Assembly: GCA_023375675.1 (NCBI GenBank)
Contig: JALQBC010000042.1
Coordinates: 186,001-250,000 of the forward strand
Direction of reading: 5' to 3'
Length of the DNA stretch: 64,000 nucleotides
Source of the DNA: Cytospora piceicola
Lineage: Eukaryota > Ascomycota > Sordariomycetes > Diaporthales > Cytosporaceae
Below the pieces are notes generated by a model, which searched no databases, had not been told where the DNA came from, and was given only the letters and a program-made list of their open reading frames with translations. This document shows positions 7,956 to 42,398 of this stretch, in pieces. The stretch's first letter is position 1. Every line of letters begins with the position of its first letter. The translations under genes and the position numbers were made by a program.

Positions 7956-7966
7956 TTTCCGATTTT

Positions 7967-8085
7967 GGCAGGTTTCGGCTCCTGAGACACTGTTTCTAGA
8001 GTGCATTCTCGAGTCTGATACAGTTTCTGGAGTGCATTTTCGAGTGTGATACATGTATCGTGAGTTGAAACTTTGTTTCTGGAGT
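7967..8085 (+). repeat. Left terminal inverted repeat (119 bp)
   Basis: It begins GGCAGGTTTCGGCTCCTGAG, includes TGTATCGTGAGTTGAAACTT and ends TTTCTGGAGT. The reverse complement of 42280-42398 matches along the full 119 bases without net length change, differing mainly by C/T and G/A transitions. Within it, a block of about 31 bases starting GTTTCTRGAGTGCATT is repeated. Weaker mirror similarity continues outward to about 7941, so the true edge may lie a few bases further out. This copy keeps several CpA and TpG, unlike the right copy. Confidence 0.85.
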
Positions 8086-8092
8086 ATATCCT

Positions 8093-8197
8093 CGACCTTG
8101 ACCACTGACCTCGACCTCGACCACTGACCTCGACCTTGACCACTGACCTCGGCCTTAACCACTGACCTCGACCTCGACCTTAACCTTAACCTTAACC
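8093..8197. repeat. Left subterminal 19-bp tandem array and TTAACC tract
   Basis: Four copies of a 19-bp unit (CGACCTTGACCACTGACCT and variants) occupy 8093-8168. They pass into CGACCTCGACC and three TTAACC units ending at 8197. Related GGTCGAGGTCGAG and AAGGTCGAAGGTCG sequence lies just inside the right TIR (about 42198-42216). Such subterminal arrays are often transposase-binding sites; that role is inference. Confidence 0.8.
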
Positions 8198-8572
8198 ACG
8201 ATGCTTCGTACACCCGGCAACACAACAAAAGAAGCCGTAACCAATAACAGAAACAGCTATCAGCTAGTAAGCAGACACTAAAATGCGATATAAACGACGT
8301 AGGAATCGTCGCCTGAAGGTTAGTTATAAAAGGCCCCCGGCGTAAAAAGGATAAAAGGGAAGGCTATTCGATTAAATACTAAAGGCGACAAAAGCAACAA
8401 ATTATTATAATCGTTCGTATAATATCCTAACGCCTAAAATTCACATATCTTAATCTAAATATCCTTACCCTTATTTATTATAAAGTCATCATCGTCATCA
8501 CCTTATCACTATCAAAGCTATTGTTTACCCTTAGAACCATCGTCACTATCGTCGGCATAGTCAACCTTAGAG

Positions 8573-8626
8573 CCCTCTCTAGCCTCAGAACCCTCTCTAG
8601 CCTTAAAACCCTCTCTAGCCTCAGAA
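8573..8626. repeat. 18-bp tandem repeat (three copies)
   Basis: Three copies of CCCTCTCTAGCCTCAGAA (the middle copy with two transitions). On the minus strand it encodes the GSEAREG hexapeptide repeats of the decayed left-end gene, so it is an in-frame coding minisatellite. Confidence 0.85.
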
Positions 8627-11600
8627 CCATCGTCGGTATAGTCAGCCTCAAAACTATCGCTACTGTCGCTACCGGCGCTGTCCTTACCCTCGTTTATAAT
8701 ATCGTCTAACGCTACCGCCTGTATTAGTAGCGATATACTGCTACTCGACGGCTGAAGGGCGGCTAGCCGTAATGAGCGCCGATGTGTAGTAGTCTCGATT
8801 TCGTTACCTGATTCTACCTCCGGAGACTAACGCTTTAAAGATCTCTCCGAGGAGTAATCATCGTCAGAATTACGACGTTTCAAGGTTAGCTTCCTGATGC
8901 TCGAAACCGGCTGTTATCTAGCAACACCTGCACTAGTAAAGACACCTCTAGCAGATGCCTAACCTTCTCCTCTGAGATATACACGCGCCTTTATATAGGC
9001 GATCGAAAGGTCGTTATCGATCGACTTAAGTATATCGCGGTTTATATAGTATATACCTGTTAAGCGGTGTTTTATAACATTTACTAGCTAGCGAAAAGAA
9101 CTACTAAGGCAGTTAATATATACGTGTTCCTTTAGGTCGGTAGGGATACTATCGTTACTCGAAAGGATATCTCGAAGCTTCTTAAAGAAGTTTTTAACCT
9201 TTCTTATAAGGTCTAACGGCTTAATCTTAGGTGCTAAATAGCACTCTACAGTATATTTTTTCGACCGGTAAAGGATGTTCGTCTCGAAGTCGTAAAGCTA
9301 ATAATAATACCTTCGTGGTAATAGGACAGAAGTAGGATCTCGGAATTCGTGTTCTGCAGATTTAAAATATTTATTACGATTATATATATACCGAAAGCTT
9401 AGTTTATAAGCTTAATATATAAGGGGTTTGTTTTTTTATTCGTCGCTTTAGCCTCTCTTCTGTAAAACGCGATCCTACGTAGCCTTACGGTTATTTTAAA
9501 CATCTTCAAGTGCTTAGGATAAAGAAGGCTTTAAAGCCTGGCCGGCTTTTTACTCTTAAACGGTAGCCTTATTAATAATATTAAAGTTGCCCTTAAGACG
9601 GAGGTTAGAATAAAAAACGACCTTTTTATAGGTTTCCGAACTTTTATATCTTTTTTAGTTATACTAAACGTTAGTTTCGAGATAGTAGATCGAGTATTAG
9701 TACTTTTTCGATAGCCTTTAGTTAAGCTTACCGCGGTCGTTTATATACTATTAATAGAATCGGAAGGATTAATACTAGCTAAGAACACTTATTTTATCCG
9801 TTTAAAAAAAGCCGTATTCGTAAACTATCGTCGAAGGCGATCGTTCTTTTAAAGGTATATAACTTTAGCGGTATTAATTTAGGTTTCCTTTATCTTTAAA
9901 TCTCTCTTACCTTTTAGTATAATCGATATAGTCGTAACGGAGGTATTTCTAAAAGAACTCGTAAACTTAATCGAGAACCCCTTCCGTATCGAAATAAGAG
10001 TTAATATCCCGATAAGCTTTTAAAGCTTTCTAGTTAAAGAATAACCTTTAGTAATTATTATACCTATACCTTTACTCGCTATAAAAGTAGTTAAAGTAGT
10101 ACTAAAGCTAGCTAACGTCGAGGTTACCGGTAATATAATTAAGGTACCGGAAAGAGAGAAGCTAGTCTTAACTATCTATAAGTTAGGCATATAAAGGGTC
10201 TAGCAGGTTAAGGTTTGTAAACGACGAATCGGGAGCTTTTATATTAACGTGTTCTCCGGGTAAAGCCTATCGCTCTCTCTTAAGTTTAAGGTCGAGCTTT
10301 TAAAACGGACTATTTATTAGGATTTATAATAGGTAAGTAAACTAAGCTAGCTAAAACAAGGGATTGTATATACTTATCACCTTATTAGTGATATTGCTAT
10401 CCTAGGTAACGCTACGAAACTTATCTTAAAAGCTTTCGACCGGATCGAATAGGTCCAGGTACTTAATAAGTCTAACTACCGGTAATAAAAAACTCTAATA
10501 CTTTAAAAATATTACCGAGTTCGGAGGTCTTTATATAGTAGTAACGTGCCGGAAAGGGTTAAGCTCGAACGGTACGATCGGGAAGCTTTAACGGTCTGTA
10601 ATCGACTACTAAACTTCAAATATAAAGTCTAGCGAGTAGCGGTCTTTACTTAGCCGCTAGTTACTAACCTTTTAAACGGCTTAAGCAACTTATTATAAGA
10701 CGTCGTGAATAATCTAGAAAAGGAATCGCTCTTAATAGATACTTAGTTCGGGCTTATAAAAGTCGAAGCGTACCGCAGCTTTATTATATTACGTATAGAA
10801 ATCTAACGAGACTAGTAAAGTATATAAAATGCCGATCGTATAGCCGATAAAGCATAGCTAGCTATAGTAAGAGATATAGAAGGGATAAATCGTACCGTTA
10901 AAAAGTATATAGGCTTTAAATTCCGATTCGCTAAGGCTATAGCTTTTGAAAATAGCTAGGCAGCCTTATTAGATCCGGGCTACCTCTTAAGTTAATATAT
11001 TATCGACTAATCTGCCTTTCTGTCGAAGGTTAAAAAGAGGGCTATTATTTCGTTTAGCCTTTACGAGCTTCTCTTTTAAAATCCGTGTCTTTCTTTTAGT
11101 AGAGACGGTCTTAAGAACTATTTCTAGGTCCTCGTTCGTTATATTAGCCTATTACTTTAGCCGAGCTTAACGTTTCCGGTTACTAAGCTTTAGCAGAAGT
11201 CGAGCTATCGTAAGGTTTTTTATAGCAACGGTAAGCTATTAGAGAACGGGAAGGCGTTAATCTTAAAGCGTTTCGAAATCTTATAAGACCTTTTATTAAC
11301 AGGCGGCGACTATAAGGTTTAAAATAAATATATCCGGGCCTTTTACTTAGTTAAAAAAGCTTATAATAACTACGAGATTAGCCTTCGTATAGTAATATAA
11401 GGCCTTTTAACGAAGAACGAATAGTATAAAAGCTTTTAGGGATATAATAAATAAGGATATAAGGAATAATACGTTTTAGCTAGTTAAAGAGTCGAAGGCT
11501 TATAGCTTTAGGAATTCGTTAGCTTCCGCCGAAGTAATATTAACTAACAAGATCTTATATAAGTTATACCGGAAGCTGTTTATAACGTTTTTAAAGCGTT

Positions 11601-11928
11601 TATTATACTCTTGTTAAAAAAGGCCGAGTATATATACGTTATTCTTATTAAAATGCTTCCGAAGGTCTTTAAACTTTAGTTTCGACGTAAAAACGTCTTT
11701 AAAACCGACCGGAAACACTTTATCGCTAACCTTCTAGTTAAAGACTGCTTTAGCGATAATTACGTATCTATCTTTAATAACGTAAGGCTAGAATAAATCC
11801 TCGGGTATCGTATAAGACTAGTCGGCTAGTTAGTCGGCTAGTTAGTTCTCTTCTTAAGGGGTTAGCTTTAGCTAGGATTATTAGTATTAATCCGTCGAGA
11901 TAAAGGATAAGATATTTTCTAACTCACT

Positions 11929-12000
11929 GTCGATAGCTTAGTCGATAGCTTAGTCGATGGCTTAGTCGATAGCTTAGTCGATAGCTTAGTCGATAACTAG
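11929..12000. repeat. 12-bp tandem repeat (six copies)
   Basis: Six copies of GTCGATAGCTTA with single changes. In the minus-strand phase of the neighbouring decayed gene this reads as Q-A-I-D repeats (Gln seen as TAA), consistent with an N-terminal coding repeat. Confidence 0.85.
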
Positions 12001-12499
12001 CTAGGTATCGTATAAGGTTAGTCGGCTATTAAGTGGTCTTCTCGGGGGGTTAGCTACAAAGCAGATAGAATTAGTATTAAGACGAAGTAAGTGTTCGATA
12101 AAGGTTATAAGTTACCGTAAATAATATACTAGATAACGTATAGCCGAACGTTTAGTTAATTATTAATATTTACTAACATGTCGGCTTCGGAGCTAGCTTA
12201 AGAGGTAGTCTATCGCGTTTACCTATAATGGCAGTAGTTTAGGGTCGGAATGTCTAATAAGAGTCTAGATATTTAATATTATTAGGGTAATGTATGCGTA
12301 GTATACGTTACGAAAAGTATAAGAAAGTAGGTAAAGTTATAAAAGGTTAAATAAAGGAGGTAAGGTTACGAGAAGTATAAAGTATAAAAGAGGTAATTAC
12401 GTAAGGTATAAAGTTTAAGTATATAAGGCGTTTATTTAAAAAAGCCTTTGTTAAAGGATAGTAAGTACCGGAATAGAGCCGAGTTACCGAGATGTGTTT

Positions 12500-12778
12500 A
12501 GAAACTACGATTAGCCTTTTTAGTATATGATTCGTACGTAATTCGAAACAGCTTACTAGCTATATAGTAGTTCTCTTAAACGAATAAAGAGCTTAAGACT
12601 TATAATATAAAATAGTACGAGGTAATAAAACTACGTCTAGAAACTACGATTAGCTTTTTTAGTATATAATTCGTACGTAATTCGAAATAGCCTGCTAGCT
12701 ATATAGTAGTTCTTTTAGACAAATAAAGAGCTTAAGACTTATAATATAAAATAGCACAAGGTAATAAGACGGCGTCTA
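12500..12778. repeat. 139-bp tandem duplication
   Basis: Two head-to-tail copies start at GAAACTACGATTAGC (12501 and 12640, period 139). They share TTCGTACGTAATTCGAAA, CTAGCTATATAGTAGTTCT and GCTTAAGACTTATAATATA. Most differences are transitions, so the duplication predates or accompanied RIP. Confidence 0.85.
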
Positions 12779-13039
12779 AAAAGCCGTACTTAATAGAGGT
12801 ACTTAAAAAAGGTGTCCGATAAAGGTATTTAAAAAAGCTGTTTAATAGTCTGTTATTACTACGTATCGAAATAAGCAGTTTATAGTCGATAATCGAGGTT
12901 TTCTATCTTTAAGCCTACTACTTTCGACAGACACGAATATAACCTTTAAAGACTAAAAGCCGACTCTATCGAGATTTATTCTCGTATAAAAGACGGCTAA
13001 AAGGATAATACCGTCGACTAAGTATAACCTCCGCCGTTT

Positions 13040-14560
13040 TACTAATTAGCAAAAGATTTTAAATAAGGCCGACCGTAGCCGTTTAATAGTTCTCTTAACG
13101 CTATAAGAATTTATACTACTATAAGATAACCCTCTCGTAGAAAAGCTGTTACCCCTTATAGACCTGTTAATTAAAGAGATTAAAGACCGCACTCTAAAGC
13201 TAAAATACTAAACGAAAAGAGGTACCGTTTCAGGTTATATTACGGTTTATACCCTTTCCCTTATATCTATTTAAGGTTATACTAATATTTTATTAGTCTG
13301 AGCTTTAAAAACAGGACCGGCTTAATATAATATAGCATATATAGCCTTTTTTTAATAAGCCGAAAAAACTATTCGATATAACAGTTCCGGAGCTACGCTA
13401 ATAGATTATCGAACGGCGTATTCCTTTAAATAAAAGCTAAAAGACGTAATAGCACAGACCGCTTTTTACTAATTTACTAATCGTCGATACCTTAGCTTAT
13501 AAGAACTTACGATATAACGTAAATATATACCGTATACTACTACTTAAGGTCTTCGATATTATCGTTATAAACTACTAGAGTATATATATATACGTAAAAC
13601 GTAGAAGAATACAGTCGGTATCCGATATATCGCAGGAAGAGCTTACTAGGTTAATTGTATAAGATTTAAAAGTAAAGTCTCCTTTCCTAATAATTATAAA
13701 TAAACCCGTTCGTAAACTAGTATATAAAACGATCCCTTAATATAATAAACCCGACCGGCTATTAGTAAATAATACGATAGTTATTCCGCCGAAACGTAAA
13801 CTTCTATAAAAGGGGAATTAACTACGAAGACGAAGCTACGCCTTTATAGTTATCTCGCTAAAGCAGAAGCTCCCTTTAAATAAAAGCTCCTTCGACAGGG
13901 TAGGAATATACGTTAACTCGTATAAAAGCTAGCCCCGAACCGCTTTAACGGCTATTTCGCTTAAATAAACGCTGCTTTAAAAAAGAAACACTATATAGCT
14001 ATAATAAAAGCTAAAACAGTTCGTTTTTAAATAGCTAACGTAGTTAGAAATTATCGATATACCTACTATATTTTTCGTCCCGGACTAAAAGTTATTAACC
14101 GATAACACCTTCGTAGATCTCCCTTATGCTAAAAGACATACGCTTCCCGTATACTAAAAGACCGGTATCGAGCCTTTATAGCTTAAAGCAGAGCCGAAAA
14201 AAGGTATTTTTTCTTAAACGCTAAGCTAATTCTAAAAAAAGCTCGACTAAAAGGGTATTCTATACTTCGTCGACGGAAAGAAAAGTAAAAAAAAGGTAAA
14301 GCTAGTTACACGACTTTTACTAAACGATAAGAGTATCTCTCTTAACACGCTAATATATAACAAAGTTTTACTTATCTTAAAAGGCACTTTTAAATAAAGG
14401 TACCCGGATATATTAATATAAACACGGCGGAAAGGGATTCTATATATTAGTCTCTTTTATAACAATAGAAAGCCTTTTACTAAACGTATTATTTAAAATA
14501 TTTTATAAAAGATAAAAAGATCGGGTATAAGTATAGGTATAGAACCGACTAAAGAATAAC
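13040..14560 (+). pseudogene. Decayed coding block, family unknown
   Basis: In one plus-strand phase the text reads as protein with RIP-type stops only. Segments include KLLTDNTFVDLPYAKRHTLP (14.09 kb), GILYFVDGKKSKKKVKLVTR (14.25 kb) and RRKGILYISLFYNNRKPFTK (14.43 kb). The antisense phase is also fairly open, so the strand is probable rather than certain. I recognise no domain. Confidence 0.3.
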
Positions 14561-15019
14561 AGAGATAATCGAAAAGCGGAAAGTAAATAGGATTTATCTT
14601 ACTTTTATTTAGTAAACTTGTAAACTAGTATTATATTACTTATATTTTAATTCGAGTAGGTAAATACCGGTATTAAAAATAAATATCTACCTTTATAATT
14701 AAGTCGGTCTAACCTAATTATAAAAATAAAGTTAAAGCTTAAATAGAGTTAAAATAATAAGGCTAAACGTATCCTTTTAGTACGTAGCTAGTAGTACGTA
14801 TACCGTTCTTTTTAAATAAACGTTAAGTTATAAAGCTATTACTATCTCTATTATACTATACTATATCCTTCTCTTACTACGCCGTACCGGATATTATAAC
14901 GATCGGTCGGAGGTATTACGGTCGGGGCTATCGAGGCGCGAAAGGTTAATTAGAGAACGGCAGATAAGGAGGTCGTATAAGGTTATCGTTTAAGGTTGGA
15001 AATTATTATATAATCGGTT

Positions 15020-15215
15020 AAATGAATATCGCGGTTAAAGAGATCGCGGTTAAAGGGATTGCGGTTAAAGAGATCGCGGTTAAAAGGATCGTAGTTAAAG
15101 ATATCGCGGTTAAAGATATTACTATCGAAGGCTGTTAAGGCTTAAGATATTAAGGATATCGCGGTTAAAGATATCGTAGTTAAAGATATTACTGTCGAAG
15201 GCTGTTAAAGCTTAA
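15020..15215. repeat. 15-bp minisatellite (GCGGTTAAAGAGATC family)
   Basis: About eight imperfect copies of ATCGCGGTTAAAGAG, followed by a second-order duplication containing GATATTACTATCGAAGGCTG. The length is a multiple of three and reads as I-A-V-K-E on the plus strand, so it could be a coding repeat. CpG in GCGG is preserved while other contexts have mutated. Confidence 0.85.
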
Positions 15216-17880
15216 AATATTAGTTAAGAAACGGTAAAGCGAAGGTTATTATTTTAAATCTTATCGGGTTTCCGTACTTTCTAACCGCCGTAATAATCCT
15301 CGAGGAGTTAAAAAAGTATACCTAAATTATAGTACTTAATCTATCCCGACTCTCGAACTAGTATTCTATAGTATACTAACTACGCTTCTTATAGTATTTC
15401 GTACCTTATATATTTTAGCTTTTATCTCCGAAACCGCTTTATCCGCGACCTCCGTTTTATAGTCTGCTTAAAAGCTCTATAGTTCGACTTCTATTAAGGC
15501 CTTCGAAATCGAATTAATAACCTTTACTAAGTAACACTCCCGTTCTCCTATTTATATACTATAAGCCTCGATAAACTACTCGTTCCGTTTAAAGATATAA
15601 GCTCTCTTATCTAACTGCTTATTTTTAGCTTCGACGTAACGCTTTCTTTCGGAAAGCCGACGTTCTTAGTTAAAGATATAACGCTCCTTTTCGGCTAAGT
15701 AATAGCCGAGATCTTAAAGCCGCCTCTTTCTATCTATAAGGTAAAAAGAAAAATCTTAAAGGTATATCGCTTTTTTATCGATATCGGATAACGTAATACC
15801 GTACTTTATAAAGCTAAACTTAAAGTAACCGTCTTAAATAATCCGGATAAAGTAAATAAAAATACTAAAAGTATCGTCTAGGTTTTTATATAAATACTTA
15901 CGAAAAGCTTAAGCCTTACCGGTTATATTGTCTACGACGGCCTTCGGTCGGCCTAATATTAATATTTAAAGTAGTTAGATCTGCTAATCAAGGCTTTATA
16001 TATAAGTCCTATATTAAATATAAGTATAGAAAAAGCTATATAAACTCGATAAATTAAAATTAAGTATTTATATACTTATAAAGGTATACTAAGCTTAATT
16101 AAACCAGATATTAAATACCCCGGGTTTACTCGTTATCTTACTTTAATAACTTTAAGATTAAATTATAACACCGAGATAGTAACTACTAACGATACTTAAC
16201 GTTTACTTATCCTACCTTAACCCTATATAATATATTATTATATAGACTCCCGGAAGGCTTAATAGCCTTATACGTATACGGCGTTTATAAAATCGATCGT
16301 AAGGAATACTATAGCTATAAGAGATTACTACTATAATTATTATAACTAGCTAAATTAAAAGCACTTTTCTTAGTAAATCCGAGGCAGAGGCTAATAGTAG
16401 TTTAACTAAATATAGTAAACGTAACTTAAATTATATATAATACATAGGTAATTTAAGCCTTTCCCGGTAAGTCCGGAGCAAAGTTCTTAATTATACGTTA
16501 GCCCGATACGGTAAACGTTATTTATATATAGCCTTTCCTTATAAATCCGGGACAGAGGTAAATAATAGTCTAACTCGATATAGTAAACGTAACTTATATA
16601 AAACGGTAAGTAATTTAAGCCTCTCTCGGTAAGTCCGGGGCGGAATTCTTAGTTATAAATTAGCCCGATACGGTAAACGTTATTTATATATAGCCTTTCT
16701 TTACAGATCCAGGACAAAGACTAGTAATAGCTTAACTCGATATAGTAAGCGTTATCTAGCTGCTTTTAATATAAGCTAACTTTTACTACTTAATTAAAGG
16801 TATTATTCTTAGTCTTAAGTTTTTATCTGTTAAAATAATTTATCAGATCGGTTTAAAAGGATATTAGAAATATAGTATATACTATTTATTTTTTAACAGC
16901 TTACTTTTAAATAATATATACTAATTTATCGGTCTCTGTTATAAGGAGGTCGCTTATAATAGTATAGTTAGTTAATATTAAGAAAGCTACCTACTTAATA
17001 AATATCGAAACTTACCTTAGCTAAATCGAAAATAATAGCTACTTTTATTTTAAGCTAAAAACTAATAAAACTAAAACTATTATTACTATAGTCGGCGTAT
17101 TATCTATCGGTTATATTAGTAATAACCTTACTATTGTTACTCGACCGGAGAACTACGTATTAGCCGTAAAAGGTATAATAACTATTTAGTATAGCGACAA
17201 TATATTAAAGATACAAGATTATTAAGTAGTAAAACCCTTTACGTCTTTAAAAACCGCGCTCCCTTTAAACACGGTTAGCTATATCCCTTTTAATATAATT
17301 TAATTATCTCGTATACTATTAAGACTTACGGTATAGTTAAATCCTAACGTTTCCGAGATATTACTATATTTCGACCTATTAAAAGCGTAATATATATATT
17401 TAAAACCGTATCTATTTATATTAACAGACGTTAAAAGATATAGTACTTTAAACTTTAAATAAATTATTTTACTTTTATTTTATCTCTTTACTAGTCTTAA
17501 CTATAATTCTAAAGTCGGACCTTATTATTACCGGGACTTAATTTATACTTTACTATACTTTATTCTTAACTATATATTCTTACCTTCCTACCTTTAGTCG
17601 CGGATTAAACGTATGCTATTCGAAAACCTAACTATATAAGGCCGGAAGCTTAGCTTAAATTATAGCTATTAAAAGTCGTCTGTTAACCTAAGTTAGTTAC
17701 CTTTAACTATAATTTACCGTCTTTTATACTAACCCTCCTTTCGATACTTACCTTTTAATATATTCTCCTTATAAAGCTATATCGAACCTTTAGCTAAGGC
17801 TTACGTTAACTACTAAAGTACCTTCGACTTTACGTTATATTATAAAAAGTATATACTCCTAAAGCTTAACGTCGACCTAA
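15215..17880. other. RIP-degraded region with a CCGGGGC-type repeat cluster
   Basis: I can follow no convincing gene here. The cluster at 16330-16760 contains about five copies of two alternating motifs, one near AATCCGGGACAGAGG...TATAGTAAACGT and one near GGTAAGTCCGGGGCGGAATTC...CGGTAAACGTTATTTATATA. Confidence 0.5.
16330..16760. repeat. CCGGGGC-centred repeat cluster, copy 1
   Basis: Repeated blocks built on AGCCTTTC-(N)-TCCGGGGCRGAGG...CGATATAGTAARCGT, spaced about 60-90 bases. The same family, in the same orientation, recurs at 32140-32375. It is too short and dispersed to be an LTR pair. It could be subterminal repeats of a nested element or a regulatory array. Confidence 0.7.
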
Positions 17881-19240
17881 AAAAATAAACTAAAAAAAAG
17901 CTACTACTATACGCCGCTATATACGATATAGGTATACCGTAAAGGCTTTTCTAATCGGTATACAAAAAGGTAAAAAAGGCTTTAAACCTAAACTTTAAAC
18001 TTATATAAATATTTATAAAAGATAAGTACGGCCTATAAGTAGATATAAAAGCTATAAAAGTACAGATTCTCGAAAGTATTATCTGTAAAGTTATTAAGCG
18101 ACTATAGCCGGCAGCTCCCTTTACAACGACGTCTGCCCTAACGCTACCTGCTTAAGCCTTTAAAAAAGACTATTCCTCTTTTAACATCTTCCTCTTCTTA
18201 TAATAAAAGCCTAGTAGTATATTCGATATTATTAACTTTAATCCCGCCCGCCGGGTAATAGTTATACTCGATATATTTCTAACTACCTCGAAAACGTTAG
18301 CCTCGGAGCTTATTAACAGCTAAAGCTCCTCGCCGGTACCGGGTAAGCTTTATAAACTATCGACTCTTTTCTTAAGGCGGCCGATATACTAAAGGTATAT
18401 AGGCGCGGATATATCTTAACAGATTTCGAACGTAATAAACGTACTCTTTATTAACTTTACTCCGGACTTTAGCCGTAACCGCTCCGTCCTTATTATCTTA
18501 AGCTAAGGGGCGGCTATATAAAAAAGCTTTACACGGCCTTAAAGACCCTACAGACGTAATAAAAACCTTAAAACCTTAATGTCTTTAGTCTAAGAGAACC
18601 CGTCGCAGGCCTAAAACTTACTACTCGACTTTATCGAAGTTATCGATATTAAATACCCGGATATTACCGCTATCCTAATAGGCGGGGAGAGTAGTTAAAA
18701 TAAAGCTATATAAGTCTTTCTTTAAAGTATAACGGATATTAATAAGCAGGCCTTTATAATAAAGATATATACTATAAACACTCGGCAAACCGTGTTAAAC
18801 TAAGTCGACGTCCTCTTAAATATTATTAAAAATACAAACTAAGTAAGTAAAACGATAAACTAAATAGTTAATAAAATAAAGCGTTTTAGTATAACGATCT
18901 TTAACAATAACGACGAGGAATCCGATAACGCCGATTATAATAAACCCGTTAAGTATAAAGCCTATTATAGCGATATAATAAAAACGTAATATTAGACTAA
19001 TAGTTATAGTAAAGTAATAAAGTATTAAGGTCTGTTATATATAATATACTATTCTTACCTAATTTACCTTACTTATAAATTCTAATACCGTTATAGCTAT
19101 AGTCCGAGTATACCTGCTATGTATCTCGCTTATTAGTTAATTATTAAAGATACAGTAAATAAATCTATCGCGTTTCTATATTATATCGAAAGTCTACTTA
19201 AAAAAGAAACAGTCGGGGTATTAGACTAAGTTAAATCGAT
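17880..19240 (+). pseudogene. Decayed coding block, family unknown
   Basis: One plus-strand phase (for example codon start 18108) reads well for over a kilobase: LLLDFIEVIDIKYPDITAIL (about 18.62-18.68 kb), QSITDINKQAFIIKIYTINT (about 18.74-18.78 kb), then an acidic FNNNDEESDNADYNKPVK (18.90-18.96 kb). Stops are TAA/TAG only. The acidic low-complexity stretch strongly favours this strand. No domain is recognised. Confidence 0.4.
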
Positions 19241-21000
19241 TTAAATTAGTTTAACCTAATAAATCTTATATTTAAGCTAAAAACAGCCCCCGGCGTACTT
19301 AAGCTATATACCCTTAAATCTTTAATCTAGTCCGACCGGGTTAAAATACTGCCGAAATCCGCGTTTTCTACTTAAATTTAATAAGTATAGTAGTCATTTT
19401 ATAGTAATTAGACTAATTTATCTAATTACTCTTATTCTAAGTTATATAATAAGGCTATCGTATACCTTTTATAATTTTTCTTTATAAGTAAAGGGTATTA
19501 TAAAGTTAAATGGATAGCGGCTATATCTGTTATAAAGACTACCGCCTATATACCGGCCTCGAAAGTTACTTAGCTACTATATAGCGTTATTATACCTACC
19601 GGGCGGGATATATAACGGTAAATATTACTACTATATTAGGTAAGCGAAGGATAGAGAGTAATTATTATAGTACTTAAAGCTAATATCGTAATTAATATCG
19701 TAGTTAATATTAAGGTTAAGGTTAAAAGACATTAAAATTAGTATCTTTATAGGCTGTTAATAGTATTACCTGTTATATTTTATAGCTAAAAGACTATACA
19801 TATAGGTTTTAAATAATTAATTTCTCGTACCTTATACTAAAATATAAACTATATATTTCCGGATAGCGTAGCGTTTATATATACTCGGTCCCGAGTATTA
19901 GCCTTACTTAACCTGTTAGGTTATAAGCAGATATACTTTAAAGCTCGATAAAACTAGCTAAATAAGGTAAAAAGTTTAAAGACTATCTATTCTGAAATCC
20001 TCCTTAGACTATTAAGAAAGTATTTTATACTTAATATCTATACCTACCTTTTTAAATTCTAGTCTTTAATATAGTACTACTTAAAACCTAAGCTTAATAC
20101 CTATTATACCTTCTTCGCCGTCGGGTTACTTAACGATAGCTTTAATAACGCTTTTAAGTATTACTTTTACGTTATCGCCGAAACCTAGACTTCGACGAGC
20201 CGGCTTACCTTTAACGTATCGTAATAATAGAAAAAGAGATAACCTTAGTAAGTAATAACCCTAGTAAACGACTTAATCCTAATATAAAAAAGGTAGATTA
20301 GCTATAGCCGGTCGAGTTTCCTTTAAATTCCTATCGGGTTATAAAACTAACTAAAATCTATAATAACGGTAACGTTAAATAAAACCAGCAGCTTATACTT
20401 AAAAGAAAAGAACGTATATTACTATAACTATAGCGTTACTAGGCTATTTATAATCCCTTTAGCTTTTCTTAATACTTAAATCTAAAGTAAAACGCGTTTA
20501 AAAGTCGTTAATACCGTATACTACTATATATATTAATATATACTTACCTTACGTCGGAAAAAGGTCTCGGCCCGGCTTACCTATAAGAAATAAAGCGGTT
20601 TATACTTAAAATATACCTACGGTATAAATAGTTTACTTTAGCGTAAAAAAAAAGCGTAGTTATAATATTTCGTCCGGTTTTAGTTTTCGTAGTATAGCTT
20701 TTAAGTAATATAATAAAAGTTAATATAAAATAAGTTATAGTATATATAACTACCGTTATACCTAATAAACGGCCTATACTTAATAAGGTTATTAAGCTAA
20801 ATACCGTTATATAATTAAACTAAAAACTAAGCCTACGCTTTAAACAGTAAAGTAATATAATCCCCTTTCTTATAAAACTTATTACTATTAGTTTCAGGCG
20901 GTATACCGGCGCGATAAACGATATTTAAACTTACTATATACAGCGCGATTAGCTTCGGGTACGCTACCGGGTTAAATTTCTACGTTAAAATATCCGGTAA
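19240..21000. other. RIP-degraded DNA, no gene resolved
   Basis: Same composition as the rest of the island. A short GGTTAAGGTTAA tract lies at about 19.70-19.73 kb. I could not pick a strand or frame with confidence. Confidence 0.4.
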
Positions 21001-22960: not shown

Positions 22961-23411
22961 ATATTATCGACAAGCTAACGAAGTTAAAGTAAATATTTCG
23001 GTATCGGTCTATAACAGAGATAAAAAGCTTAAGTAAAACAGAAGACGTTAAAAGCAATAAAATTACGAAAGCAGATAAGCTATACGATAAGTAAATATTT
23101 ATATATTTTATCGACCTTTAGGTTTTTAACGTACTTTCTTATTTACTTATAGTAATACTACGACTTTCGTTTATTTTCTATTTAAGTTTTTACTATAGAC
23201 TAATATAAAAGCACCTATAAGTAACTACCGGCAAAGGTAGCTATATCTAAGTATACATTAATTATACGCTCCCGATCGCTTTAACCGTATTATAATCGCT
23301 TAATAATAAAATATATAAGTAGCTAGCCTAACACTTTAGTACTAAGTACTTACAGATCCTTTCTACCCTTTATTTATTTTATATATATACCCGTTCTTCC
23401 TATAAGTCTTA

Positions 23412-23720: not shown

Positions 23721-25061
23721 CCTTTAACCCCTTTATTTAAAACAGATTATATAATAAATCGCTGCTCTAACCTTTTATTCGAAGTATAGTTAAAACTATA
23801 GTAAAACGCTTAGTCTATATTACTATTCGCCTTATCGTTATAGTAATCTGTAATATCCGTTATTAACACGCTAGTACCCGAGGCTTAACGCTATACCTCG
23901 GGTTAGCGTAAACTAGTTTTAATAGATTTATTTAATACCTTTAGCCTTAAGCTTCTTAGTAAGTTACTTTATTATCTGTTTATTTAGTAACGTAGTTTAT
24001 TCGGTATCTAACTAATCTCTCTAATTAGTTTATTTTAGCTTAAACTCGTTAAGTATTAAAAACTCGCCGGATAGTAGTTTTATATATAAGTATATATTTT
24101 ATATTTTATTTTTCCGGTTTAATTTTTTTAAATATCGAAGAAGATCGTATTTATAGTAATAAAGGCTTCAGGCTATAATAGTAAGTATTAACGAAAGACA
24201 TATAAGGTAGTAGTATATATTTTAAATTATAGTACCGAGTAGTTTTATCTTATACTATTAAACTATATTATCGTAACGAAAGGTATATAAGTATTAATAA
24301 TTAATTTTAATTATAGTCGCTAAGTAGTAATAAGATATACTATCGTTAAGTATAACGAACGTTATTATTAAGGCCGTAATAAGCCTTTTTAATTATAGTC
24401 TTCGTTCGGCTTAAATATATATATTATTAAGACTTTTATACCGCTTATTTAAGTATCCGCCTACTAAATAGCTAAGGTTATACGTTATATAATGTATATT
24501 TTTACCTATATCTCTCGAGACCGATTATTTCTCGTTCGGTAAAATATTATTCGGGTACTTTACCTTTTCGGAGAGATATTTAACTTTAAAAGATATTATC
24601 TTTAAACTATATCTTAATATATAACAGAACATACACGACGTAAAAACGATTATAAACGGCGATCCCGGCTCTTATAAAAGTAACGGCCTATATATTAAAA
24701 ATAATATATAAAATATAATCTTACTATTTTCTTACCTTTAGCTTTATAACTTAATAACCTCTTTAAGACCTTTATTCTTTAACGTTATTACTTATATCTG
24801 TTCCTTATAAGCCTTACTACCTTAGTTTTATTAAGATACTGCTATAACTACTAGGCCGACTCCTTCTATAGTATAGAAAAAAAGAATAAAGCTTACGGCC
24901 TTTTATTTATTATTAACAACCTTACCTATAACCGCTATAACTATATAGCTTTCTACGTTATATATAACTTAAACGTACTATAAGCTCTTTATAAAATAGT
25001 CTTTTACTTCGTTCGGCCTACCGTCTTCTTTTAAAAGAACAGTATAATTTAAAACGTTTAA

Positions 25062-31000: not shown

Positions 31001-34000
31001 CTACTCCTTATTAAAAGTAACGTCTGTAAAGCTTAAAAGATCGTCTATAGCTAAGTAACTATATACCTTAAAGACTAAGCTAGTTAAGATTACCTCCTTT
31101 AGGTTTAATAAGGCCTTTAAGAGCTCGGTCTAGCTTTTTATCGTATAAACGTTATATATAGCGACCTGTTCGATAGCCGCCGCCTTTTCGATTACTATCT
31201 CGGAACCGCTTTAAAACTAGGTATATTCGAATAAAAGGATATCGTTTTTAATAAGCTACTTTAGGCAGATTTTTTATACTATAGTTAGGTTAATATATAT
31301 AAAGGTATAGTATCCTACCCGGTTTATACTTACCGTTATAGTCTGTTTAGTTACTCGATATCGAGGTTATATCCTCCTCCGGCTTTAAAAACAACAGGGT
31401 CGTTGATAATAATACTTTTATATTTATAATATAAAGGTCGAGCTAGTATAAGCTTACGATATTTAAAAAAGAGAAGTATTCCTTTAGCTTTAAGTCGAAA
31501 AATCTAAAAAGGACAGGAATAAAAATAGATATATTAATAATATATTTAATATATTTATAATAGATAGTTAAATATAAATGTTTATCTTCCGAATATTAAT
31601 CTATAGTAAAGTAGTTAATAAAAACTTATAATTTTAAAGATAAAGCTTTAACCTTTTAAGAAAATATCTTAAAAAAGCATCTATAAACCTTTAGACTACC
31701 GTCCGCCTATTCTTATAAACAGGCTTAAATAGATATATTCTAGTTAAAGCATCTATTTATAAGACTTATTCTAGATATACCCTTTTACTTATAGCAGTCC
31801 GTACTTAATAATAACTATATCTTATAAATACTTTCGCGATCGGCTTAAATTTATAGTTAATATATTTTAACGTTATAGATAGTTATTAAAGGTTACTTAC
31901 TAGGGCTTACTCTATTTTAACTTAAATATCTGCTGTTTAGTATACGACGGATAATTATAAAGGATAACTAACTAATGCCTATATATTTCGAAACCTATAT
32001 AAGAAACCTATAAGCCTCTCGGTCGGGTATAGATAATAAGACGTATTAAGCTTAAATAGGTACTGTTTAAAGGCTAATAAGGTCTAAATAAAGATTAATA
32101 GAGCATTTAAGCAATATAGGTAGTTAAGCTAATTTAACTAATTTAAGCCTCTCTTAACAGATCCGAGACGGGAGCTAAAAGTAAGCTAGCTTAATATAGT
32201 AAGCGTTACTCGGATTAAACAGTAAGTACTAAATTTAAGCCTCTCCTAGCAGATCCGGGGCGGAGGTTAGTAGTCTAAACTTAATATAGTAAGCGTAAAC
32301 AGTAATTAATTTAAACCTCTTTTAACAGATCCGGGGCAGACGTTAATAGTTTAACCTAATATAGTAAACGCTAATTATACTGTTTATAATCCCCGCCCGA
32401 TACTCGAATTCTATATACCTAGCTTTTAAATACTATAACTACCTAAGTAGTTAAGATAGAGATAACTTAACCTAATTATCGCTTCGGTTACTCTTATCGC
32501 TACGAAAACTTTTAGACTTATTATTACCGTGCTTTAAATTACTATAGTTACGATAGAATCTTACCGTTAAACGTTACCGATTATACCTACTATAACTAAA
32601 TATCTTATACGCTATATAGCACGTCTCTACTTAACGTATCCGATACGATAAAGTTAAGGCACTATAAGTTAGTAAAGGGAGGAAATAACGCGGTTAAGCG
32701 GCAATAGCTTTATAACCTAATCTAATACTTAAGACAGCGGTATATATAAGACGGTCTACTAGCTATATGCTAAATAGTCGCTTTAAGCCTAACTATACCT
32801 GTTCTTTAAGCTCTAGCTTTTCTTAAGACTAAGTCGGATCGACTTAGATCGATCTAACCCGAGAAATCTCGTTTTTACCTTAATATAGCTTTAAAGCGAG
32901 TCTTTAACCCTCCCCCTCCCCTTTTTAATATATTTATTTTTAGCTTTTTAGAAGTTACTTTTCTTACTTAGATTTAGTAAAGATAACGGTTATTTCCTAA
33001 TATTCTAACCGGTCTAATTATTTTCTTTTACTTTAAACTATATAATACTACCGTGTACGCCTCTTATAATTTTTAATATAAGTTAAAGATATCGTAAAGT
33101 TAGCCTGTTACCGGGCTTATCAGCGTAGGTATTATAAGGTCGAAGTTTAATACTATACTCGTTACCTATTTTATTTAATCTTACTTACTTTAAGCTATAT
33201 TATATTATCGCGTATACCTATAGTCTTTTTCGTAAGTTAACGATATCGAAAAGTTATACTTTAGTAGTATTAGGTATATAAGGCTTATAATACTTTTAGG
33301 TTTCTTATTATACTTCTTATTTAAATAAACACTTAGTTCTTTTACCTCTCTTAATATTACTTTATACCTTTTATGTTTTATTCGTATAATTTAAAATAAC
33401 CGTTTAAAAGGGTTTTATTAAACTAGCTTAATACTACTTCGGGCTAAAAAGAGACAACTTACCTAAATATAGTTATATCTTATAGCTAAACAGTTAATAT
33501 ATTCTTTATAATACTATAGCTATTTTATTTAAGTATATTATCTTTAAAGACTATCGACTTTTATTAACAGGAAAAATATAAATAGACGGCTGCTTTACCG
33601 TTATAATACTATAAGAAAGAAGATACTACTATAATAATACTTCTTATCTAGTTACCTACTCTTTTTTAACTATTATCTTAGTTAAAGCGGGTAGTAATAT
33701 TATACAGATTACGACTCCTTTAAGTTTTATAACGTAGGATTTATCGCCTACTTAAAGCCTAAAGATATAAAGACTTAGCCTTATACTATCGTATAGGTTA
33801 TATTATATACGCTTTATACCTATACTAACGCTATTATCGTTCTAACCGCCTTAAGGTAAAGATCTTACCGTATTTATACCTTTACGCCTTAACGTGTCGT
33901 CGGGGGTACGTAAATAATCTTATCGTAAAGTATTTTATACGCTTTTTTAAAGTTAGTCTTTATTATAGCCTCCTTCTTAGCTTAAAAGCCTTTTACCTTT

Positions 34001-35899: not shown

Positions 35900-38800
35900 G
35901 CCTAACCTACGGTAAACTATATAATATATATTATTACAACTACGATTAGTTCCGTAAATAGCTTTTAAAAACCGTCGATATCCTCCGAAAGAAAGCCTTA
36001 AACACTATCTTAATTAACCTAAATAAAAAGACCTATATTTAAGTTATCGTTAATAAATAGAGCTTTAACAGTCTATTAAAGATAGTTAAAAACAGTATAT
36101 TTACAGCCTCTTTTTATACCGACTACGGCTATATCCTCTCGTTTAAGCCTTACAGTAAAAAGCTACCGGACACGCCTCCTAGCCTCTTAAAGAGGGCTTT
36201 AACGTAGCTCCCTCCCGCTACGCCCCCCGCTAAGTAACCTCCCGCTAAACAACCTCCCGCTAAACAACCTCCCGCTACACCCTCTACTAAATAACCTCCC
36301 GTTAAGTAACCTCCCGTTAAACAACCCCTTATAAAAGCCTTAAATAAAGCCGGACCCGAGGTTAGCTATATATAGTCCCCGACCTAATACGTTAATTACT
36401 ATAATATTATCCTATAGTCGATAATAAACTTAACCGCTACTAAAGGTAAGGCTATTATTATTAAAGAATAAAAGGAAGTACTCGCTAACGCTAATAATAT
36501 TAAAAACTAGCTAAACGCTATTACCGACCTCCTCGAAAACCTTTCGTAGACGGTAATTAACCTAACTACTTTTAAAGATAAAGCTATCGTTATTAAAGAA
36601 AAGGAAGAAGTACTTACTAACGCCGACAGTACTAAAGATTATAACTATCCGGACGCTACTATTTAGCTTACTAGTTTCGATAAAACATACCTTAGGTTCG
36701 GCTAAGCTCTCCGGTTCTTTTAAATAACCGAAAACCTTAACGGTAAATATACTATTAAGGATATTATACGATCTGTTTATATATACTAGCTATATATAAT
36801 ATACAGCCTTTTTATATCGCTTATTACTACCGGGGTAAATAACGCTTTAATAAGCTAAAACGTCGGGTTCGGAAAAACTATACTAATACTTTTATACCTT
36901 TATACCTAAGCTATACTCGCTTCGCTTTAAGCCGAAGTATAAACCGAGTAAAAAAGTAAGCTAACCCCCTACTTATATCTCTATAAAAATAGCTAAAAAC
37001 CCGATAACCGGTGTTTATCTTAGCTTAAGCTTATAGTCGAGTATTTATATATTAAATCCTCCGACTTTTACTATATCTGCTTAAGCTATCTTATAAACTT
37101 ACCTGCTTTAGTTATAATCTCTGTTAACCTAATATATAACTAGCTAAGTAAAGTAAGCACGGTTTATATATAAAGAAAACTAAAGACTAAGTCTATAAAG
37201 TTCTATACGTATATTTTTAAAGTAAAGTACTTTATAAATATACATATAGATTCGACCTACTTAATAAATATTATTAAAAATATAGCTAGTAAAGCTATCG
37301 ATATTAATATAAGCGATAACGGTAATAGTAAGTAGTATATAATAAGGTATATCGCTAACGGTATAAGCACGGTTATAAATATCTTCTTTATAAGCTCGAA
37401 GTCGGTCGAGCTATTAAAAAAAGAATACCCCTTTATAAAAAAGACGAAGTATAAACGCTTTACCGTAAGCGTTATAATTATAGATAAGCATTACTAATAT
37501 AAAAGCACAGGTACTATAAAATATTATAAAACAATCTTATTTAAGGTTTTTAAATATATCTGTTCGATAGCGTTATATCTTATTACGCTATTTACGCTAT
37601 ATAATACTACCTTTAAAAAAGGCCCTTTAACGTAACGAGCCTCGATTAAATACTTTAAAGATTAATAAAAAGAATTTAAGCTTTATATACTACGCCTTAT
37701 CGTTAAAGGCGAGTTCCTTATAACGATAAAAGCCTTTATAAGCGTTCGACGGTAGTATCTTAACTTAATATATAGGCTTACTACCTAGCTTACTATAACA
37801 GACGTAAAGATATATACGGAAATCCGTAAGCTTATCCGCTTTTTTAAACTTATTATATAGTACCTCCGGTAAGGTTAGCTTTATCGTAGTAAGAGGATTA
37901 ACCTGTTACCGTCTTACTAAGAAATCGATAAAGTACTCGAGCCTATTTAAAATAATATTATACGTTTTATATTTACTAACTTAGTATTAAGAGTTACTAG
38001 CTTCGTTAATTTAAAGCTTAAAAAGTAACGTAAAAAGTAAAAGATAGCTAATCGAGTAAACGCTAAGCTTATAAAAAAGTCTTTAATAAAAAAGCTAATA
38101 AGCGGTAAGCAAAAAACTTTAAATAAAGGGTTTACTAACCTATAACGCGCCTCGATATACTTATACGTAGCGGTCTTACAGAAAGTATTAAATATAAAGG
38201 CGTTTAACGCGGCGGTATATTAAAGGACCGCCTTTAAGTATTAAAAGAAGGTCTTTAACGGTATTCTTTTAAAAAGTGTTTTATAAAGGCTGTTTTAATA
38301 AAACTAGTTTACCTACCTAAATACGATTTAAAAAAACTCGGCTAAGTTTCGGAAGGTTAAAGTGTTAATCTAATAAATAATCTCGGATAAGAATAAAGAT
38401 ACTATACCGGCGGATAAGTCGGGTAAACGTTATACTATACTCTTTTATAGCTAGCCCTTAAACGTTATACTAATATACGTCCTCTTATTATACGACCTCG
38501 AGCTCCGAAGCGTTATAAAGCCGTTACTACTAAACTTTAGCTATACTATAGAAAACCGGGCTAAGATTATATACGAAATAAATAAAGATTATACTATAAA
38601 CAGCCTTAATAAAGTCCTCGTTGTTATTATAGCCGTCGTAACCGAAGGGTTTAATATCTAACAGGCGAATAACGTTTAATTTATAAAGCTATTAATTACT
38701 TTATTTAAAAAAGAGTAAGCTTAAAAGAAGGTATACCGATAAGGATAGAAAAAGAAGGTAAATATCGTTAAGCTTATAGAAAAGAGTAACCTAATAAAAG

Positions 38801-38950
38801 AGCTTAAATATAAATCTATAAAGGCTAAGTAAAGGGTTACCCGGCTTATTTATAGCGTCGAGCTATAAATTATTAAGCCTATAGAAATAAGGATCTTAAA
38901 AGGTTTACGATAAGATCGGATGGTTTTATAAGCGTAGGTTAATAAGAAAA
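35900..38950 (+). pseudogene. RIP-inactivated SNF2-family helicase/ATPase
   Basis: In a single plus-strand phase (codon starts at 1 mod 3), SNF2 motifs occur in the right order. Motif I is VGFGKT at 36862-36879. Motif Ia is PALVIISVNLIYN at 37102-37140, followed by a TAG that fits Trp. Motif II is IIID-K-H at 37474-37491, where GATAAGCAT is the RIP product expected from Asp-Glu-His. Motif V is TEGFNI-QQANNV at about 38641-38676. Motif VI is EQAQKKVYRQGQ at 38713-38748, followed by VNIVKLI. Spacing is 80 codons I to Ia, 207 I to II and 386 II to V. N-terminal to the ATPase are a Pro-rich PPAKQ repeat and a segment reading TASFYTDYGYILSFKP. Stops are frequent but all fit CAA, CAG or TGG. SNF2 proteins are DNA translocases that remodel chromatin or act in DNA repair; what this one did for the element is unknown. 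Confidence 0.78.
36231..36338. repeat. 15-bp coding minisatellite (PPAKQ)
   Basis: Six to seven copies of CCTCCCGCTAAACAA and variants, in frame with the SNF2-like gene. Some copies keep CAA (Gln) while others have TAA, so it records partial RIP copy by copy. Confidence 0.85.
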
Positions 38951-40251
38951 AAGAAAAGAAAGTAATAGTTCCGACGATACGTTCTTTTAAGGTAGCTTTC
39001 TTTCTTACTACTTATTTTCCTTATATTATTATTCTGTTCGGTTTATTTAGTTTTTCTTACTATCTTTTAGTTATATTCTTTTAAGCGGTATTAGTTTATA
39101 TAATATAAAGATAAAAGGAGGGCTATATATTAGCTTCGAGGTTTCGGCCTCGAAGGTAAAAGTACCTTTATACGAACGAAACAGTCGTATAAATCTTTCT
39201 ATATAGGTTTAGCTAAAAGGAAGGCGTAAAGTAGTACCGTTAAGAAAATATATATATAAACTAAGACGGCTTTATATAATTAAAAACGTATAAGTTTTTA
39301 ACTTAAACTTAAACTAACTATATATCGAGTAACTTTATATTAAGTATAGCTTATATTATTTAAATTAAATAAAAGATTAAACAGCTATTAATCTTTAAGC
39401 CTTAAGGTATATATTATTGTTTTATAACTAACGTTTCTGCTTAGTTAGTCGTAATATGGTATAGTGTATAGTATTTTTAAAGGATAAAGAAATCTGTTCT
39501 ATATCTCTATATATTTCTGTAAGGTATTATTACTCTACAGACTATATAAGAGAAGATCCGTTAGTTACCGATTATATTTAAAACCGCCGGTACTTTTAGT
39601 TAGCTTAAAACTCTTAAACTTTATATACTTATTCTCTTAAACCTAACCGGCTAAAAACTATAATACTTATCTAACGCTATTACTCGCTTACTTTATTAAT
39701 AAAATATCTAAAACCTAAGACTTAAATAAGACTAAAACTTTCTATAAGTATTACTTAGTTCCTTTTATATATATAAATACTTACAATACCTAGTCGGCTC
39801 CGGCCTTTATAAAGTCTTTTATAAAGCCTTTCCTGTAATAAACAACGTTTATAAGTTATTTAAAAAGCCTCGCGTACTAAGTATTAACGCCCTCGGTCTA
39901 GCTTTAAAGGATAACTAAAGTCGTGTTCGTACCTTTATCTTTAAAATATACTAAATACCCGCCTAAAATAAGCTAAGGCTATACCTTAAACGTAGATAAC
40001 ACGTTTAAATACAGATAACAAAAGTTAAAAAAAAGTACTATATATTTAACTAATAAGTCGGCGGTAGTATCGACTATACTATAATATATAGTCGTACCTG
40101 CTTTACGGCTATTAAGCTTACCGAGAGTAGTAAAGTTTACGATCGGTTGCTTTTTAATATCCCTCGAACTAGCTCTTCTAGCAGAATAGTATTATCGAAG
40201 CGTAAAAGGCTTACTATCGAGGAGGACAAAAAGGATAAGAACCGTTAGACG

Positions 40252-40338
40252 ACTAACGATAAAGATCGCTAAACTACTAACGATAAAGATCGCTAAACTA
40301 CTAACGATAAAGGCCGTTAAACTACTAATAATAAAGAG
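40252..40338. repeat. 24-bp tandem repeat (3.6 copies)
   Basis: ACTAACGATAAAGATCGCTA plus AACT, starting at 40252, 40276, 40300 and 40324. The last copy is partial and diverged. Confidence 0.85.
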
Positions 40339-40629
40339 TAAAGAGCAGTAAACAAACTAGTCCGCTAATTTAACAACCTACTATAAAACTTAAAACCAGA
40401 TAACTAAATAATTAACAATATAAAGGGTTACTATTATCGCTTTTATTACTTTAGCATTCCCCTTTTATCCCTTTTAAGCTTTTAATAAATAACCTTTAAA
40501 CAACAATTCCTAAGTCGTCTATATCGTATTCTAGCAGCTAGCTAATAGCTACTCTTCCCTCCGTTATATACCCGATGCCTCGTCTAATATTCCGGCCGAA
40601 TAAAGTATATAAAGCATCGTAGTCAGTAG

Positions 40630-40670
40630 TTAAGGTTAAAGGTTAAAGGTTAAAGGTTAAGGTTAAGGTC
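40630..40670. repeat. GGTTAAA/GGTTAA tract
   Basis: Five to six units of GGTTAA(A) followed by GGTCGA. This is the mirror image of the GACC(TTAACC)n tract at 8177-8197 near the left end, but it lies 1.7 kb from the right end instead of about 0.2 kb. Confidence 0.8.
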
Positions 40671-41857
40671 GAACATTTAAATTAATATAACCGGCTAATA
40701 AACCGGTTACTAAATTTAAAAGGCGAGCTTACTAACCGGCTATATCTGTATAGTTACTACCGTATTTAACAGCTATTATAGCTATTAGCTATTATTAACG
40801 GTCACTTAAAATAACTATTTCGGGACAGGCTATAGTTATATAACCTACGCTATTAGAATTTATATAAAGAGCCTATAGTGTTATCTAGCGCTATATATTT
40901 TTATTATTACCTTTTAATATATATAAAAGTTATATATCTAGGTTATTTAAACTCGTACCCCTATACTATATAACGCTCGAGTATCTACTTATACTAGCCT
41001 ACTTATTCGTTCTTACTTTACAGGCCGTCTTTAAGGCCTACCCTAGCTACGATATATATCTCCGCTCCGTCTATACCTAAACTGTATGGCCGTTTAACGT
41101 ATCGCGCTATCTAGCGATAGTGTTTAATATATAAGGCGTATATTTTATAGGTGTATCGAGATAAATCGCTATCTCTATTACTAACGAATACCTTTAAACT
41201 AGACTTAAACCTAAACCTAAACTAGAAAACTAACTAACTATTAACTCGATAAGCTAACAAAACCGAAAAGCGAAGTAAGAATAAGAACCTCGAATAAAAA
41301 TAAGATAAAAACCCCCGAACCGAAAAGAATAAATTAAGATTTATAATATTAAAAGTAAGGGTCTTTTATAATTTACCTCTTAATTAAGAGTAAAGGTCTT
41401 CTATAATATACCCTTTAACGTTAATATACCGCTACCTAAACAATATTACAACTAAGCCTTCGGGCTTAAAAATTTAAAGCTCTTCTAAAACGATACGATA
41501 CCTACGCCTATACTTAAGGTTACGCTTCTCTTCTTACTATTTTTATCTCTTTTACCAATATACTTTATCTTATAAAATATATATTATTTTATATATATAC
41601 CGTACTTAATATAATATAGTTTAAATAACCGTATATAATATTAAATTAAAACCGCTCGGCTACTAAGGCGATAGTCGTCTCTCTTTTTAATAGTATAAAT
41701 AAAGATATTATAATACCTTCGATTATATAACGCCTTTTAAGCGGATATCGCTTTTATCGCTCTTTCAATCAGCTATTACAGCTATTATAGCTATTATAGC
41801 TAAATTAGTCCTAGGGAAAGGTGCTATAGGTAGCTTAACTAGTCACGTGTTCTGTAG

Positions 41858-41985
41858 CGGACCGACCGTAAAAGGCATCGTAGCTATCGTAAATCTTCCG
41901 GGGCAGACCGACCGTAAAGGCATCGTAGCTATTATAGATCTTCCGGGGCGGACCGACCGTAAAGGCATCGTAGCTATTACCTAAA
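41858..41985. repeat. 45-bp tandem repeat (three copies)
   Basis: ACCGACCGTAAAGGCATCGT starts at 41861, 41907 and 41952, each followed by AGCTAT and, after the first two copies, CTTCCGGGGC. A fourth short echo (ACCGACCGTAAG) is at about 42104. The CCGGGGC core resembles the clusters at 16.3 and 32.1 kb. Confidence 0.85.
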
Positions 41986-42279
41986 CAGTTACTACCTAAG
42001 TAGTTACGTGTTCCGCGGCGGACCGAGTGTACGATATACTCTTTCCGTACAGCCTTTCCTACTCGGTATAGCCTAAGCCGACTATAGCGAACCGACCGTA
42101 AGATAAACTATAAATATACTACCGACACGGCTACGGTTAGATGAACAGAGGACTATTAGGCGTAATAGAAGCTAGACGATCAGGACTCGAAAGCCGAAGG
42201 TCGAAGGTCGAGGTCGAGATAGAGACAGTGATAGCTACGATTAGGACTCGAAGACTATGAGTCGAAGGCTCGAAGGTAA

Positions 42280-42398
42280 ACTCCAGAGACAAAGTTTCAA
42301 CTCACGATACATATATCACACCCGAGATACACTCTAAAAACAGGTTTCAAACTCGAAAATACACTCCAAAAATAGTGTCTCAGGAGTCAAGACCTGCC
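42280..42398 (-). repeat. Right terminal inverted repeat (119 bp)
   Basis: Its reverse complement matches 7967-8085 over the whole length: GGCAGGTCTTGACTCCTGAG at the outer edge, TGTATCGTGAGTTGAAACTT inside. Compared with the left copy it carries more C-to-T and G-to-A changes (for example TGTATT against TGCATT), as expected if RIP hit this copy harder. Confidence 0.85.

Follow-up and report, generated by a model that had tools for sequence, protein, structure and literature searches.

A family of giant elements with long terminal inverted repeats, degraded by repeat-induced point mutation, in Cytospora piceicola

Introduction

What kind of DNA is the AT-rich island that splits a HET gene of the fungus Cytospora piceicola into two parts? 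The locus lies within a stretch of 64,000 nucleotides (C39:186001-250000, hereafter the window), in which the island, at positions 7934-42433, has a GC content of 0.316 compared with 0.535 in the remaining window. Islands of this kind are ordinarily taken for stacks of retroelements that inserted one by one and were altered by repeat-induced point mutation (RIP). An earlier note on this DNA, made from the window only, had claimed instead a single giant element bounded by terminal inverted repeats (TIRs), or a composite moved as a unit, without a match to any known superfamily. Here, the island was compared with the rest of the genome (43.6 Mb in 99 contigs; C1, C5, C39 and similar labels are contigs of this genome, and E21, E36 and E79 are elements on them). 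The explanation that we consider probable is a family of giant TIR transposons, of about 19-54 kb, with long asymmetric TIRs and an element-encoded recombinase, which would later have been killed by RIP.

Results

The island as a single mobile unit

When five other elements of the genome were compared whole with that of the window, those on C28, C21 and C5 proved colinear for >33 kb at 84-85% identity, and those on C36 and C79 are rearranged relatives that have blocks in common with it. Because the four colinear copies (C39, C28, C21 and C5) stand at independent sites, they show that the element moved as one unit, which supports the claim of the earlier note, be it for a single giant TIR-bounded element or for a composite.

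That the island is RIPed, as the earlier note had it, was borne out by the drop in GC and by both RIP indices over 7934-42433, TpA/ApT being 1.77 (0.71 in the remaining window) and (CpA+TpG)/(ApC+GpT) being 0.16 (1.21 in the remaining window). Each pair of the four colinear copies differs by 4595-4972 transitions and 163-283 transversions, a ratio of 16-30, and because transversions are so few we infer that the four were more than 99% alike before RIP. They appear, therefore, to be near-identical copies that were degraded later. A C before an A was retained in all four at only 15 alignment columns, and because it has been lost in nearly all the others, just one stretch of 179 codons was found in which a frame is free of stops shared among the copies. 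RIP appears to have broken the genes of every copy examined.

Boundaries and termini of the window element

The comparison of 17 elements, together with the restored HET frame, placed the whole element at 7934-42433 (34,500 bp, + strand from its L end to its R end), and comparison with the other copies thus extends it by 33 bp and 35 bp past the earlier coordinates 7967..42398. The final G (42433) may be target rather than element sequence. The 119-bp inverted repeat of the earlier note stood insofar as a repeat is present at both edges, but it proved longer and less perfect: 7943-8099 aligns with 42265-42422 at 130/160 identical positions with 5 gaps (E 8e-35). The left arm belongs to the L-type terminus (7934-8099, + strand, reading inwards CCTCGACAACGAGAGG...) and the right arm to the R-type terminus of subtype 1 (42265-42433, - strand, reading inwards CCCTTGTTAACCGAGAG...). 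On the left side there are also two copies of a 31-bp subterminal repeat (7992-8053, + strand) and 4.7 copies of a 19-bp subterminal tandem repeat (8090-8179, + strand). The L end is palindrome-like; however, since it folds just slightly better than shuffled sequences (z -1.79, compared with z -0.43 for the R end), little weight is placed on a hairpin.

The same termini bound 18 elements

A search of the genome with these ends gave at least 52 matches for the left end and at least 55 for the right, a single end being able to yield several matches, and many of them formed inverted pairs tens of kb apart. Eighteen elements, picked as inverted pairs among the terminus matches listed, had both ends read (17 read together plus one on C26, of about 33.5 kb from its two coordinates); six of them were examined whole, and the lengths range from 18.8 to 53.9 kb. 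The recurrence of the same termini around 18 elements makes a chance origin of the inverted repeat unlikely. As for the question raised beforehand of whether these termini also flank short elements, every inward-facing inverted pair among the matches listed was at least 18.8 kb apart.

Every one of the 18 elements carries one L-type and one R-type terminus. The former reads CCTCGACAWCGAGAGG... and is diverged in the elements of C22 and C64. The latter falls into two subtypes, reading inwards CCCTTGTYAACCGAGAGCG... in 13 elements (subtype 1, with small variants, for example, in E79 and E21) and CCCTGTYAAGCGAGAGTAAA... in 5 elements (subtype 2). A division of the L ends into two subtypes was considered and rejected, as, apart from that of C22, these differ just in the target base beside them, and the two subtypes are found at R.

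Two arrangements of termini deserve separate mention. At C26:348095-348098 two L-type termini lie head to head with a single TA in common; one of the elements ends at C26:381586, and the R end of the second was not found. At C5:179063-272468, R-type termini of different subtypes are inverted with respect to each other 93 kb apart, with two family gene sets between them, probably representing several nested or adjacent elements.

Insertion into the HET gene

The left part of the interrupted host gene occupies 6333-7933 (+ strand, the open reading frame (ORF) as listed and its start position approximate), and the right part 42434-44297 (+ strand). When both flanks were joined without the element and used as a query, 1170 proteins were found among 7987 scored, the best match being from Cytospora schulzeri (74%, with 100% of the query covered). 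The joined flanks read CGC CCG TGG GCG CCT GAT, that is, R-P-W-A-P-D, and the junction motif RPWAP is present in 15/16 of the HET homologues examined, with RHWAP in the other one (P0032). In the whole set of 119 homologues, 61 had RPWAP, one had R-x-WAP and 57 had neither, the last being mostly more distant or partial sequences that were not inspected one by one. The flanks are, as proposed in the earlier note, two halves of one gene. Because joining them restores the conserved RPWAP of HET, the insertion is exact: no base of the target was lost, and one at most was duplicated. The empty site of the window element is, in this case, the one deduced from HET homologues of other species.

Target duplication and the base at the ends

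No target duplication of 2-8 bp was detected above shuffles in 17 pairs of flanks at the boundary offsets tried, the best case reaching 7/17 compared with a shuffled mean of 3.8 and a maximum of 7. The base before L is the same as that at the R end in all 18 elements read, being G in 13/13 elements of subtype 1, whereas all 5/5 elements of subtype 2 (4/4 plus that of C26) have A. The dinucleotide before L is TG in 12/13 elements of subtype 1 and CG in one, whereas in subtype 2 it is TA, CA, TA and GA, plus TA on C26. In the window, the TG before L belongs to the target, because it is part of the conserved tryptophan codon; the base on the R side is either a one-base duplication or element sequence.

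Genes of the element

Gene blocks were delimited by codon periodicity and by conservation with respect to E36 and E79. The largest gene, encoding what is called here protein C (8800-12300, - strand, from periodicity and conservation), has at least 1167 residues and 96 in-frame stops in the window. It was found at 40 or more loci of the genome, with 73-102 stops in each, nearly all of them TAA or TAG. For 15 of the 18 elements protein C is among the matches listed near the L end, and in all 15 the distance to that end is 0.9-3.7 kb and the reading direction is towards it. Two finger-like motifs (9994-10068 and 9622-9702, both - strand) were read by eye in the aligned copies, without a database match. 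Only its position and conservation make protein C the best candidate for the putative recombinase.

Protein B (17400-19499, + strand, from third-position periodicity) and protein A (19501-22500, - strand, from periodicity) also have copies elsewhere, with nine close copies each including that of the window (76-100% for B and 67-100% for A) and more distant ones too. Conservation further delimits block D (12703-15003, + strand, less certain), block F (15009-16301, - strand, uncertain), block H (22209-23408, - strand), block I, with internal repeats (24733-26013, + strand), and block G (39100-40998, + strand, strongest around 39760-40266).

The helicase announced in the earlier note was confirmed as a decayed SNF2-type helicase/ATPase (36679-38910, + strand), from its motifs and from a less mutated homologue. 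The stretch 36859-36879 was assigned as motif I, 37471-37494 as a decayed DEAH box, and 38641-38658 and 38725-38739 as motifs V and VI, the motif names being our own assignments. A Pfam scan of the four RIPed copies gave no match, but the homologue in element C1a (600 bases, GC 0.485, about 50% protein identity) matched Helicase_C (E 2.1e-6) and FUN30 (E 1e-4). A profile built with the four copies plus the C1a homologue matched helicase-like and SWI/SNF-related proteins with E 0.007-0.025, through the C-terminal motifs only. This C1a segment (C1:1380601-1381200) has few stops and carries far less RIP than the remaining copies; it may have been spared for want of a close enough repeat.

Domain and literature searches

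Every protein search made here loses sensitivity through RIP, and because the RIPed helicase copies escaped Pfam too, the domain negatives that follow are weak. No credible Pfam match was obtained with the six frames of the window element and its gene blocks, with stops taken as X or Q/W, and neither these six-frame scans nor the gene-wise ones gave a credible DDE transposase, in scans that missed the RIPed helicase likewise. No viral family was present among the Pfam matches of the element, a weak negative too. Profiles of proteins A, B, C, D and G had no match in PDB. Protein database profile searches with C and A revealed no relative among the 7996 and 7994 candidates scored, respectively, in the same database that yields related fungi for HET, and a pattern search of IMG/VR with both proteins, insensitive with such RIPed queries, confirmed no relative.

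Individual families were then searched for in the whole genome. DUF3435 (PF11917), with stops read through and up to E<=10, was detected only at C51:181911-182709, as two neighbouring pieces that are themselves RIPed; within the limited sensitivity of the search in RIPed DNA, it was not found in the window element or in the other 17 mapped elements. DUF3723 (PF12520), the one Starship accessory family searched for singly, was detected at C51:146 kb and at C23:310 kb and nowhere else; neither place belongs to the 18 mapped elements. DNA_pol_B_2 (PF03175) had 0 matches at E<=1, with the same limit on sensitivity in RIPed DNA, and PIF1 (PF05970) had 14, none of them inside the 18 mapped elements, where RIPed copies may be missed. 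Ten of the PIF1 matches, outside mapped elements, have at least 11 stops each and are possibly old Helitrons. On C51, the RIPed DUF3723 (146323-147192) and DUF3435 (181911-182709) pieces make a decayed Starship possible; they sit between a terminus match (C51:118826) and the family proteins A and B at 185-209 kb. Such a Starship could lie nested within a member of the family.

A partial search of the literature, through titles and the beginnings of abstracts and with subscription journals and preprints outside its range, found no description of such elements, and the available parts of PMC6431247, PMC9911072, PMC9910759, PMC12289983 and PMC12730594 hold nothing resembling them. The statement of the earlier note that no known superfamily matches has held in these searches, though RIP hides domains.

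Other features of the window

Two tandem duplications are present inside the element, one with a unit of 139 bp (12499-12782) and another with a unit of 162 bp (16364-16752, with relatives around 32135-32390). Outside it, the window contains a snoR38 C/D box small nucleolar RNA (62176-62263, + strand, 51.1 bits) and an intact ORF of 813 amino acids (2471-4912, - strand) that, as judged from the ORF without a search, resembles an ABC transporter.

Discussion

How such an element could move can be sketched from its parts. An element-encoded recombinase, for which the large protein C near the L end would be the candidate, would recognise the L and R ends and connect them with the target, staggered by 0-1 base. 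Near the R end, the SNF2-type ATPase could help DNA access or remodelling, and the 31-bp and 19-bp subterminal repeats would be putative binding sites. RIP would then break the genes of the element copies. By the tests possible, the best reading of the family is that it is neither Starship nor Polinton. We also put forward, tentatively and with rather less confidence than the transposon family itself, that it could represent a hitherto undescribed superfamily of giant DNA transposons of eukaryotes, with protein C perhaps as recombinase, asymmetric termini (one of them palindrome-like), a target base dependent on the subtype and essentially no duplication.

Several observations weigh against the reading as a family of giant TIR transposons. 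Since none of the proteins was recognised as a recombinase, the enzyme is a guess, as is its chemistry, and all the copies examined lack signs of being intact or of a recent move. In E79, the distance between protein C and the L end is about 11.9 kb and the gene reads in the opposite direction, and it is absent among the matches listed for C64 and C26. For twelve of the 18 elements the two ends were matched up from their positions, with the interior unread, and the set leaves aside at least 20 more terminus matches, including what may be a 60-kb pair on C58. The exact insertion is supported by homologues at one site only; across the 17 joined flanks, open frames numbered 11 at the exact join compared with 9 and 7 at shifted joins, a weak difference. 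The agreement of G with G and of A with A is a contrast of two subtypes only, and could reflect element sequence instead of duplicated target.

To our knowledge, the giant transposons of fungi are currently all but equated with Starships. The family described here would be a second, abundant kind, with 18 elements read at both ends and protein C at 40 or more loci, whose insertions are exact and nearly free of duplication. It would easily be overlooked, since its genes are erased by RIP and an annotation would list it among AT-rich repeats. The family opens to testing the way in which DNA of this size gets cut and joined, and suggests that RIP islands are worth reading for their termini, beyond domains.

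Among the alternatives, a pile of separately inserted, RIPed retroelements would account for the AT-richness, the RIP and the internal tandem repeats of the island. It is refuted for the four compared copies, which at four sites have matching termini and a common order along more than 33 kb, and the single exact insertion into HET also speaks against it, leaving this reading with next to no probability. An endogenous large DNA virus or Polinton-like provirus appears quite improbable: the length of 34.5 kb, within the range of Polintons, the TIRs, the SNF2-type ATPase and the many genes for which no relative was recognised would suit it, but the genome gave no match to DNA_pol_B_2 at E<=1, and the Pfam matches included no viral family (both weak negatives in RIPed DNA), the insensitive IMG/VR search confirmed no relative of proteins C and A, and no 2-8 bp duplication exceeds shuffles. 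Polintons/Mavericks duplicate 6 bp of their target, and this was not found in the 17 pairs. We give very little credence to a very large member of a known DDE superfamily with an unusual target duplication, for example, Spy-like or Academ-like. TIRs at both ends would agree with it; elements of the Spy group of PHIS transposons have TIRs and make no target duplication, and Academ elements carry a helicase. Target duplications reportedly differ between the PHIS groups (PMC4482050). However, no PHIS or other transposase domain was found here (again weak negatives), and the element is far larger than the members of those superfamilies.

Other known systems share single traits with the family. Helitrons likewise show no clear target duplication, and the L end here could form a hairpin, slight as its advantage over shuffles is; in contrast, these elements have long TIRs, and their helicase is of SNF2 type, not PIF1. 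Cryptons resemble them in having a short or no target repeat, but according to PMC3212892 they have neither TIRs nor long direct repeats, and instead have direct repeats of 4 or 6 bp, whereas the window element has long TIRs, extends over 34.5 kb and belongs to a family without 2-8 bp repeats above shuffles. A further comparison is with Starships, which are defined by a DUF3435 first gene at the 5' edge, direct repeats, which vary in length, and an empty site (PMC12506042), and which measure 15-700 kb, sometimes have TIRs and in some cases are RIPed (PMC12134995). A giant multi-gene DNA element with an empty site agrees with part of this description, and a Starship whose captain (a tyrosine recombinase, DUF3435) had diverged or decayed beyond recognition would agree with the size, the TIRs and the RIP, with a Cytospora-like host, as its HET gene indicates, and with an SNF2-type gene as acceptable cargo; RIPed domains can, moreover, escape detection, as the helicase did in four copies. 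We nevertheless hold it to be unlikely. Even at E<=10 the search for DUF3435 reached only the pieces at C51:181.9-182.7 kb, although these are RIPed themselves, and no captain was detected in the elements. Starship captains read inwards, whereas protein C, the gene beside the end here, reads outwards; the target repeat is of 0-1 bp, and the family includes several colinear, near-identical copies.
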